Assembly (NCBI GenBank): GCA_020847735.1
Contig: JADLBL010000009.1
Location: 1-61,662 of the forward strand
Direction: 5' to 3'
DNA from: Candidatus Eisenbacteria bacterium
GTDB taxonomy: Bacteria; Eisenbacteria; RBG-16-71-46
Length of the DNA: 61,662 nt
The translations under genes were made by a program, and so were the position numbers. The stretch's first letter is position 1, and each line of letters opens with the position of its first letter. This document shows positions 58,140 to 61,662 of the stretch, piece by piece. The notes under the pieces are model-generated. The model was given only the letters and a program-made list of their open reading frames with translations. It made no database searches and was not told the origin of the DNA.

Positions 58140-58325
58140 ACGCGAAGACCGTCCGTCGCTACCCAGCGGACACTCGCCGCATATCCCACTACCGGGCGAC
58201 GGTCGAAGGCGGAAGCGGCGGCGAAAGGCGGCGTTGGCAGGGCGGGGCCGATGGATCCGGCTGGATACATGGGCGCCGAGGGTGGCGGTAATCGGATATG
58301 TTGAACGGGCTACTTGGAGTTAGGC
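58140..58325 (+). other. attI-like region ending in GTTAGGC
   Basis: 186 bp between the integrase stop and the first cassette, without a gene. GTTAGGC at 58319-58325 fits the GTTRRRY core at which integron cassettes join; GTTGAAC 20 bp before it is a second possible core. There is no paired RYYYAAC arm to make it an attC, so an attI role is preferred. Cleavage would fall after the G at 58319. Confidence 0.55.
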
Positions 58326-58430
58326 GGCCAGAGCGACAAGCATCGACGGCCGCCTGGATGAACCAAGATGTCGTCCTGGAGGTCACGGGAGGTTTTGCGC
58401 GAGCGGCCGTGGAATATCGGAGGGGCAGCC

Positions 58431-58817
58431 ATGAAGGTTGAAATCAGAATCACAGACGCACGGCGCCAAGACAGCACGGGCCCGAGAGCGCTTTACTGGC
58501 AAGTTTCCTTCAACGCGGTCAAGGAGGGAGAGACTCCCTATGCCGGACTCGCTGCCGCGTGGCAGAGGACTCGTGACGACTTCGGCGTCGCGCATCCGAT
58601 CCTGCCGAATGATCTACCGCACTGGTTGCCACCCGACATCGTGGCGGAACGGGTGCACTGGTACGTCCTGAACCAGCTTTCTAGCGCGATCGAACAGCCA
58701 GACGGGACACTCTCAGATGCCCTGAAGGTCGTGTCGCCCATAGTCGACGAGTTCGAGGTCATCGGCGAGGTGTGGAACTACTTGGGCATGCGAGTCCTAT
58801 CTTCCTTAGCAGAGTGA
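58431..58817 (+). CDS. Hypothetical cassette protein
   Basis: 128 residues, soluble, acidic. Begins VEIRITDARRQDSTGPRALYWQVSFNAV and contains ILPNDLPHWLPPDIVAERVHWYVLNQL. No signal peptide, helix or known motif is recognisable. ATG at 58431 has GGAGGGG 7 nt upstream, a strong site. Its TGA is 1 bp from the next ATG, so the two are probably co-translated. Function unknown; base composition differs from the host genes. Confidence 0.6.
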   Translation: MKVEIRITDARRQDSTGPRALYWQVSFNAVKEGETPYAGLAAAWQRTRDDFGVAHPILPNDLPHWLPPDIVAERVHWYVLNQLSSAIEQPDGTLSDALKVVSPIVDEFEVIGEVWNYLGMRVLSSLAE

Positions 58818-58818
58818 G

Positions 58819-59157
58819 ATGATCATCCTGGCGATCGCTTCGACTCTTGCCATCGGGCTCGGACTTCTTCGGATGCCATTCGGCTACTACACGCTGCTTC
58901 GGGTGGTCCTCTGCCTCACGAGCGCGCTTGGCTTCGCAGGCGCTCGGAGTCGCGGTGACAATCGGTGGGTGTGGATATACGCTGTTCTCGCCATCGTCTA
59001 CAACCCGATACTGCCCGTGAAGCTGGGAAGCAAGAGCCTCTGGGTCGGCGTCAACCTACTCACGCTGATCTTCGTCTGGATTGGTGCATTCCGCCTACGT
59101 GGAGTCATCTCCGAGGAGCACTCGGCGAAAGGGGTATCCGATGGACGCGCCCCATGA
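58819..59157 (+). CDS. Small membrane protein, DUF6804-like
   Basis: 112 residues with about four hydrophobic segments (IILAIASTLAIGLGLL, LLRVVLCLTSALGFAGA, VWIYAVLAIVYNPILPVKLG, LWVGVNLLTLIFVWIGAF). The NPILPVKLG motif between helices is typical of a short family I associate with DUF6804, with no known function. ATG at 58819 begins 1 bp past the stop of the upstream gene. It overlaps the next gene by 17 bp in another frame. Confidence 0.6.
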   Translation: MIILAIASTLAIGLGLLRMPFGYYTLLRVVLCLTSALGFAGARSRGDNRWVWIYAVLAIVYNPILPVKLGSKSLWVGVNLLTLIFVWIGAFRLRGVISEEHSAKGVSDGRAP

Positions 59158-59650
59158 GTCACCGACAGAGGGCAACAAGCCGAAGGCAGAGCGCAAGGGT
59201 TTCTGGCGCTCGACCTTCGATTGGCGAATGAGCCCTGCTGAACTGGCTGAACAAGTGTCCGGCTATTCGTCGCTCGGGATCGGCAAGTCCTATCGGAAGC
59301 TCTCGGCAATGCTGTGGTTGCTCACTGTGGCGATTACGGCTCTCATCGGACCGTGGCTCATGAAGATGGACTGGATCGCGGTCATCTCCAACACGGTCAT
59401 TTACTCTGGCCTCGCCATCCCTTGCTTCCGCGGTCACCGTTGGGCATTCGTTCTGTCGATGGCCCTGTGGACCATCGAAAAGGGCTACTTCCTTCTTGAG
59501 TCCGTCGCCTCCCCAGGCACGTCTGCGGTGGGGGGTCGGTTGGTTACGTCTGTCATCTGGTGGGCCATCTACATGGGTGTCTTCTGGAAGGCGCTGACCG
59601 TGGAAAGGGTGCGACGACGCGACCGACCCTCAATGGCAGCCATTGATTGA
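59141..59650 (+). CDS. Hypothetical membrane protein of cassette 1
   Basis: 169 residues. A hydrophilic, Lys-rich N-terminus (about 55 residues, including KGFWRSTFDWRMSPAELAEQV) is followed by roughly four helices: SAMLWLLTVAITALIGPWL, IAVISNTVIYSGLAIP, WAFVLSMALWTIEKGYFLL and VTSVIWWAIYMGVFW. ATG at 59141 has AAAGGGG upstream. No family recognised. With the preceding small membrane protein it may form an envelope complex, which is speculation. Confidence 0.55.
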   Translation: MDAPHESPTEGNKPKAERKGFWRSTFDWRMSPAELAEQVSGYSSLGIGKSYRKLSAMLWLLTVAITALIGPWLMKMDWIAVISNTVIYSGLAIPCFRGHRWAFVLSMALWTIEKGYFLLESVASPGTSAVGGRLVTSVIWWAIYMGVFWKALTVERVRRRDRPSMAAID

Positions 59651-59691
59651 GCAAGTGACGTTTGGAGCCAGGGCAGGAAGGATCCAAGGCC

Positions 59692-59751
59692 ACCCAACAA
59701 CAGCATGCAGCGGACGGCGCTGCGCGCCGCCGCTGATGCTGAGCGTTAGAC
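59692..59751 (+). other. attC recombination site of cassette 1
   Basis: 60-bp imperfect palindrome. The left core ACCCAAC (RYYYAAC) at 59692-59698 and the right core GTTAGAC (GTTRRRY) at 59745-59751 flank paired arms: CAGCAT with ATGCTG, CAGCGG with CCGCTG, and CGGCGC with GCGCCG around a TGC loop. The left arm has two unpaired bases (G after CAGCAT, A before CGGCGC), the extrahelical bases that fix strand choice in true attC sites. Joining would occur between G59745 and T59746. Confidence 0.85.
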
Positions 59752-59783: not shown

Positions 59784-60140
59784 ATGGCTGAATCAAAGAC
59801 CAAAGCTACAGGAGGTAACGTCGATGACTACATTGCCTCTCGCGCCGACGAACAGCAGAGAGCGGATTGCAAGACCCTAATGGCCATGCTCAGGAAGGTC
59901 ACGGGTGAGAGTCCCACATTGTGGGGGCCAAGCATTGTCGGCTATGGTTCGTACAGTTACAGGTACGAGAGCGGCCGAACTGGAGAGTCCTGCGTTACTG
60001 GCTTTGCAATCCGCGGTCGCGACCTTGTGGTGTACCTGGTCGCAGAGGGGAAAGACCAAGCGCTGCTGCTGTCCAAGCTCGGAAAGCACAAGATGGGCAA
60101 GTCATGCTTGTACTTTAAGCGTCTGAGCGATCTAGCCCGA
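59784..60140 (+). pseudogene. DUF1801 cassette gene truncated by an IS
   Basis: About 119 native residues. MAESKTKATGGNVDDYIASR starts in normal DUF1801 style, with TLWGPSIVGYGSYSYRYESG, GFAIRGRDLVVYLVAEGKDQ and KMGKSCLYFKRLSDL, after which the usual DLPVLE... end is missing. From about 60141 the frame runs into IS sequence and stops at 60347. DUF1801 genes are frequent integron passengers. The ATG lies 38 nt inside cassette 2, which begins at the attC core (59746). TGAGGG serves as ribosome binding site. GC is low as in cassette 1. Function of intact members is unknown. Confidence 0.78.
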
Positions 60141-61662
60141 CCTATTCATGAAGTCGACGGGGCAGGCTGTTTACGGCCTGAAGGCGGTCACGCCGGCGGG
60201 CTTCGGCGAACCGAGGCCCTGCGGGAGGCTGGGTGTCGCCTTATCGCGTCGCCGACCTCGGGCGAGGCGCCCGCGAGGACATGGCTCCGCCCTGCGGGGG
60301 GCCACTTTTCGAAGTTCGAGTTCGCGGAGCTTGGAGACAGCGCGTGATCTCAGCCAGGACTTGCGCCGCTGTGCAACGCCAGCGCGTGCCAGCCGTCCCG
60401 GAACGGGAACGCGTCGGGCAGGCGCAGGACGATCCGGCGCACGGAGGCGATCACCTGCACGCCGATCTTGAGCAGGTCGAGTCGCAGCTTCGCGACCTGC
60501 GCCCGCGCCCACGCGGTGCCGCGGGCGGCGAGCCGCAGCTCCTGCAGCAGCGCGAACGCGGCGGCGGCGAGCAGGACGCGGAACTGGTTGGCGGCGAAGC
60601 GCGAGCAACTGGTGCGATCGAAGGCCACGACGAAGAGTTCCTTGATGCGGTTCTCGGCGTCGCCGCGGGCGCAGTAGACGCGCTCGTAGATCCGCTGCGG
60701 CTTGGCCTTGAGGTTGGTGACGACGAAGCGCGGGTTGAGCCGCGGCTCGCGACCCTCGAGGCGCACGACCTCGGCCTTGCAGACCACGCGCCGCTCGCGG
60801 AGCCAGGTGCCGGCGGCGTAGGCGAAGTCGGTGTAGACATGCTCGGTCCGGCCCGTCACGTCGCTCAGGACGCGGGCGGCGATCAGGTCGAGTTCGGCCT
60901 GGCGCTCCAGGACCTCGTTCTTGGCCATCGCGACCACGTAGTCGACGCCGACGGTGTCGAGGAACTCGAACAGCTCGGGGTGCGCGAAGCCGCCAACGAG
61001 TCGGACCAGGATGCGGGCGCGGGGGAAGCGCTCCTGCAGCCGGCCGACGATGCGCGTGAGCAGCGTCAGTGCGCCGGCGTGGGTCGGTGCGTTGCCGGGC
61101 CGCAGCGCGGCGGCGCACAGGTACTGCTCGCTCTCGCGGTCGAAGGTGAGGAACGCCAGCATCGGCAGGTAGCACCAGGTGTCGTAGAAGCCGTTGAAGA
61201 ACGCCATTTGCTGGGCGCCGTGGGTCGGGTCGTCGGTGACGTCGAGATCGACGGTGATCCGGCGCACCTTGCGACGGCGCCGGCGGTGACGCTCGAGCAC
61301 GGTCTCGAACAGCGCCTCGCCCATGCCGAGGAGCTCGCCGCGGGTGACGTCGTTCTCGAACCGCGACAGCGTCGGTTGCGACGCCAGCGCAGCACCGCGC
61401 AGCGGATCGCGCCCGAGCAGCAGCTTGTGGATCGGATCGTCCGCCAGTCGCGCCGCGTCGTTGGCGTCCTCGTAGCCGAGCGCGAGGCCGTAGATCCGCT
61501 GACCGAGCAGGTCGGCGAGCGCGTGGCGCACCTTACCGCGCTGCCGCTCGTCCACCAGCGCGGCCGCGAGCCGGGAGATCAGGCCGAGACGCCGATCCGC
61601 GGCCTTCAGCAGCACCGCACCGCCGTCCGAGCTGGCGTTCGGCAGGTCGAACCGGGCGGTCA
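60141..61662 (-). mobile_element. IS1380-family insertion sequence (extends past the window)
   Basis: The inner end is placed at 60141, where the sequence CCTATTCATGAAG begins (IS1380-family ends start CCTA, as in ISEcp1) and DUF1801 similarity stops. About 209 bp without a gene separate this end from the transposase stop. GC returns to a high value inside the element. The other end, its inverted repeat and any target duplication lie beyond base 61662, so the borders are not proven. Confidence 0.65.
60350..61662 (-). CDS. IS1380-family transposase, 5' end outside the window, catalytic Asp changed
   Basis: About 437 residues visible, reading TARFDLPNASSDGGAVLLK at the right edge, so the start is beyond 61662. 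DDE landmarks: ITVDLDVTDDPTHGAQQMAFFNG (first Asp), ILVRLVGGFAHPELFEF, and YCARGDAENRIKELF (Glu region), with RTSCSRFAANQFRVLLAAAAFALL near the C-terminus. In relatives the second motif reads VRLDGGFA; here Asp is Val (codon GTT on the minus strand), a one-base change that should stop transposition. The frame is otherwise open, so loss of function is recent or this copy depends on another. Confidence 0.85.
   Translation of the reverse strand, partial: TARFDLPNASSDGGAVLLKAADRRLGLISRLAAALVDERQRGKVRHALADLLGQRIYGLALGYEDANDAARLADDPIHKLLLGRDPLRGAALASQPTLSRFENDVTRGELLGMGEALFETVLERHRRRRRKVRRITVDLDVTDDPTHGAQQMAFFNGFYDTWCYLPMLAFLTFDRESEQYLCAAALRPGNAPTHAGALTLLTRIVGRLQERFPRARILVRLVGGFAHPELFEFLDTVGVDYVVAMAKNEVLERQAELDLIAARVLSDVTGRTEHVYTDFAYAAGTWLRERRVVCKAEVVRLEGREPRLNPRFVVTNLKAKPQRIYERVYCARGDAENRIKELFVVAFDRTSCSRFAANQFRVLLAAAAFALLQELRLAARGTAWARAQVAKLRLDLLKIGVQVIASVRRIVLRLPDAFPFRDGWHALALHSGASPG

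Follow-up and report, generated by a model that had tools for sequence, protein, structure and literature searches.

Do three tightly packed genes beside an integron integrase form a single cassette, and would such a cassette encode one joint function or several separate ones? The question arises in a window, meaning the whole stretch of 61,662 nucleotides analysed here (contig C9, positions 1-61662), which belongs to a 3.66 Mb genome assembled in 27 contigs and 99.6% complete. The original prediction placed two small membrane proteins and a soluble protein in one cassette and regarded them as candidates for a new module acting in the envelope or in defence. The structural reading favoured here, and held to be probable, is that of a polycistronic three-gene cassette at the attI site of a family-type chromosomal integron whose integrase later decayed. 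The features of the region are collected in Table 1.

Table 1. Features of the integron and its cassettes, with window coordinates
Feature	Position	Strand	Basis
Integron integrase gene intI, central in-frame deletion of ~115 aa	57420..58139	+	TIGR02249 in two stretches; alignment to intact IntI
attI core GTTAGGC; cassette starts after G58319	58319..58325	+	Sequence; conserved with the G026 attI region
Gene cassette, 1426 bp	58320..59745	+	attI core left, attC right, none internal
ORF1, 128 aa, soluble, orphan	58431..58817	+	Translation; codon score; ribosome-binding site; no homologue
ORF2, 112 aa, DUF6804 (PF20619), 3-4 transmembrane (TM) segments	58819..59157	+	Pfam; TM segments
ORF3, 169 aa, ~4 TM segments, orphan, 17-bp overlap with ORF2	59141..59650	+	Translation; TM segments; no homologue
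Cassette attC, 60 bp, R'' ACCCAAC ... R' GTTAGAC	59692..59751	+	Bottom-strand fold; covariance model; rule-based scan
Next cassette, DUF1801 gene interrupted by IS1380-family element	59784..60135	+	Pfam E=4.9e-7; IS end motif at 60136
IS1380-family element, to window end; transposase 60350-61615	60136..61662	-	NF033539 E=1.4e-99; terminus CCCGACCTATTCATGAA at 60136

The cassette is the first after attI, and its predicted limits were confirmed to the base. Its attC has a well-folded bottom strand and scores 82.3 bits (E=1.1e-20) against a covariance model, a score that is partly due to construction, as the model was trained on this site and five related attC sites. A rule-based scan that is independent of the model recovers the same site as the only one in the window, and in a reversed control of 227 kb it gave three matches. 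This attC type is present in 23 of the 47 genomes of the phylum. Within the cassette the covariance model detected no attC, the top internal scores (4.7-5.3 bits) being at noise level; a degenerate attC between the genes is excluded, and because there is no internal attC the cassette is a single unit. The genes are packed as first described, with a 1-bp gap between ORF1 and ORF2 (58817/58819) and a 17-bp overlap between ORF2 and ORF3 (59141-59157). The claimed departure from host composition is also upheld, as the cassette has 60.1% GC against 72.8% for the window, and the three ORFs are alike in this respect (59-60% GC, GC3 0.71-0.74). The attI core, an attC with R'', L'', L' and R' elements, the bottom-strand hairpin and the foreign composition are features shared with integron gene cassettes in general, whereas the presence of three genes and an adjoining integrase that is internally deleted and encoded in the same direction as the cassettes set this one apart from the usual kind.

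The loss of attC sites can yield fused cassettes, and the trio might have arisen in this manner. A DUF6804 gene and two unrelated neighbours, originally separate, would then have been joined by loss of internal attC, and no joint function would be expected. Fused cassettes being a known result of attC loss, and DUF6804 being found alone or with other neighbours at every other locus examined, this explanation has some appeal; however, the gap and overlap just described give neither trace of nor room for an attC remnant, and the base composition common to all three ORFs also argues against it. Fusion is considered unlikely, and a cassette that was polycistronic from the outset is the preferred reading.

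The integrase gene would bear on the fate of the cassette. Residues 79-237 of its product correspond to positions 156-314 of the TIGR02249 profile, and alignment indicates that the ~115 residues that are missing are present in the intact IntI of genomes G026 and G032, the reading frame having been kept. The deletion takes in the box that surrounds the first catalytic arginine, and both of its flanks are well conserved. This box is essential in tyrosine recombinases. The gap may reflect real decay or an assembly error, either being possible. A search of the whole genome found no second integrase at the integron-integrase cut-off and no intact IntI. Because intI has lost this segment and the genome shows no intact copy, the cassette is probably no longer mobile by means of its own integrase and would be stranded. 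The surroundings of the attI core (CTACTT-GAGTTAGGCG) are common to the intact integron of G026, a member of the same family; the two integrons also have the integrase and the attI core with the bases upstream of it in common, and their attC sites are nearly identical. Judged from these sequence likenesses, the integron type is best read as native to this bacterial family.

One gene per cassette had been taken as the yardstick by which the trio seemed unusual, and this yardstick does not hold for the lineage. A second array in the same genome, on contig C27 (L026 5571-10756) with no integrase nearby, contains cassettes for SnoaL plus cupin, a 2'-5' RNA ligase, SnoaL, DUF4386 plus GNAT, ankyrin and DUF4260 proteins. 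At least two of these cassettes carry a pair of genes that no attC separates, SnoaL and cupin lying 3 bp apart and DUF4386 and GNAT 36 bp apart. They resemble the trio in having adjacent genes without an intervening attC and in their attC type, but have two genes rather than three, and their products are unrelated. A cassette of G021, from the same genus, carries two ORFs of 253 aa that overlap by 4 bp, and in the arrays of G016, too, ORFs lie next to each other between one detected attC and the next, although weaker sites were possibly missed there. Because two-gene cassettes exist in C27 and G021, three genes per cassette is at the high end for this lineage and is not out of kind. Multi-gene cassettes are thus normal here, and the locus adds a three-gene example from a bacterial phylum that has been poorly sampled. 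By one estimate, about a third of cassettes code for proteins that have a signal peptide or transmembrane domains (PMC10963911), and membrane proteins in a cassette are therefore unremarkable. Also on C27, genes for a type I restriction R subunit and a YgjP-like metallopeptidase (L026 10734-16781) end exactly at the first attC of the array, possibly as a very large cassette.

Chance open frames are long at this GC (the median longest is 166 codons), and an open frame alone is weak evidence for a gene. A codon-usage score learned from other cassettes in this genome ranks the annotated frame best of six for each ORF, with values of 0.26, 0.31 and 0.22 for ORF1, ORF2 and ORF3 against 0.08, 0.13 and 0.16 for the respective next-best frames. 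A strong ribosome-binding site precedes ORF1 (GGAGGGG) and a plausible one precedes ORF3 (AAAGGGG). The view that ORF1, ORF3 or both are not genes, leaving DUF6804 as the sole payload, could call on the long frames that GC-rich DNA gives by chance and on the absence of homologues of either from every collection searched, yet it must contend with the codon scores of both frames, the ribosome-binding sites before them, the gene packing and the regular transmembrane segments of ORF3; it is regarded as most unlikely. Taken as genes, the three ORFs encode one soluble protein, with zero hydrophobic segments in ORF1, and two proteins that hydropathy assigns to the membrane, in line with the original prediction.

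Relatives of ORF1 and ORF3 were sought in the 47 phylum genomes, about 85,000 GTDB genomes, 72,556 plasmids and IMG/VR. None was found for either in the phylum genomes or plasmids, and no close ones in GTDB or IMG/VR, where the scans match short exact peptide patterns and reach close relatives only; the tblastn and phylum searches have greater sensitivity and cover fewer genomes. Permissive tblastn (E up to 10) with both ORFs against the plasmids returned chance matches in unrelated genes only, and a PDB sequence search returned noise only. AlphaFold2 single-sequence models were poor (mean pLDDT 53 and 55), and Foldseek with the low-confidence ORF1 model gave no match. As no relatives were detected, selection on ORF1 and ORF3 is not demonstrable by conservation.

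ORF2 is a full-length member of its family (it spans profile positions 4 to 89 of 91 and carries the YNP..P......W motif), and the DUF6804-like match first reported is borne out by a Pfam score of 62.1 bits (E=5.7e-17) against a gathering cut-off of 27. Its nearest relative is a solitary gene of G021, with 50% identity over 92 aa. DUF6804 occurs in six of the 47 phylum genomes and in several plasmids and IMG/VR contigs. Elsewhere its genes are solitary or stand beside unrelated genes, whereas the present locus puts a DUF6804 protein inside an integron, in a cassette with two orphans. A check for co-occurrence was negative, as the other DUF6804 loci in the phylum, the plasmids and IMG/VR contain no relatives of ORF1 or ORF3. 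When ORF1 and ORF3 were compared with the neighbours of other DUF6804 genes (24 comparisons), one weak similarity emerged, between ORF3 and L085 (z=3.9); it is confined to a hydrophobic stretch and was attributed to transmembrane composition. The neighbours of DUF6804 vary by locus and on plasmids are unrelated genes; in G021 they are an AbiEi/AbiEii pair and a NYN-domain gene, and a Paenibacillus DUF6804 gene is near SIR2 and ATP-binding genes. A cluster encoding an SDR protein, a DUF6804-like protein, a membrane protein, GIDE and LemA is conserved in three genomes of the family, G026-G028 (L030 5357-8781, L031, L029), and is possibly the native envelope setting of DUF6804-like proteins. In two viral contigs (L080 4582-5273, L082 4923-5567) DUF6804 adjoins a homologous 100-aa protein with three transmembrane segments, a candidate recurrent partner.

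Some of these neighbours enter into the argument that the trio is a co-evolved anti-phage or conflict module, in which ORF1 would act as sensor or adaptor and ORF2 and ORF3 as membrane effectors. ORF1 residues 32-72 align to the start of CATRA-N (PF20269; Pfam E=0.022, 15 bits against a cut-off of 27) and to the start of the overlapping family BN6_48550 (NCBIfam E=0.0043, 16.5 bits against a cut-off of 90), and the reversed ORF1 sequence has no NCBIfam match. The AbiEi/AbiEii pair and the SIR2 and ATP-binding genes point the same way, as does the title of a preprint by Darracq et al. (cited in PMC12137116), according to which integrons carry defence systems. However, both scores are far under the curated cut-offs, and at ~40 residues and sub-threshold the alignment appears to rise no more than slightly above noise. 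CATRA-N and BN6_48550 conflict-system proteins have a caspase or TPR partner, whereas none is present among the three genes; with scores under the cut-off in both profiles, ORF1 was rejected as a CATRA-N member. A search for CATRA-N across the phylum gave zero matches, but as the control genomes gave none either, this absence carries no weight. The PADLOC models of known anti-phage defence match none of the cassette proteins at E<=1, and the three DUF6804-like genes of the SDR-GIDE-LemA cluster are not in a defence setting. A conflict module is accordingly judged very unlikely. The more specific proposal, an undescribed conflict or envelope-guarding module with a CATRA-N-like cytosolic adaptor that controls a DUF6804 and 4-TM effector pair, is a long shot, and the new envelope or defence module of the original prediction finds little support, DUF6804 often occurring without the other two genes.

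For the favoured polycistronic cassette, the following course of events may be envisaged. A three-gene cassette would have been inserted at the attI of a chromosomal integron, and the integrase would then have lost its central part. The trio may be read as one short operon, transcribed from upstream as would suit the first cassette after attI; a scan for a single promoter type, sigma-70, in this high-GC organism found none upstream. Close spacing and overlap suggest that translation of ORF2 and ORF3 is coupled. The products would be a DUF6804 protein and a second multi-pass protein, both in the inner membrane, together with a small protein of the cytosol, and the three might act jointly at the inner membrane. 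ORF1 and ORF3 are best read as lineage-restricted partners of the DUF6804 protein. The likeliest function, put forward tentatively and with considerable doubt from topology and gene packing, is an accessory, non-essential role for a small complex in the inner membrane that has a cytosolic partner. If the trio does work jointly, it would provide a first functional handle on DUF6804.

The IS element that interrupts the next cassette has a counterpart elsewhere. Its 17-bp terminus is found in identical form within cassette arrays of two genera (at 60136 and at L061 12045), in each case after TAG, and an insertion preference is possible.
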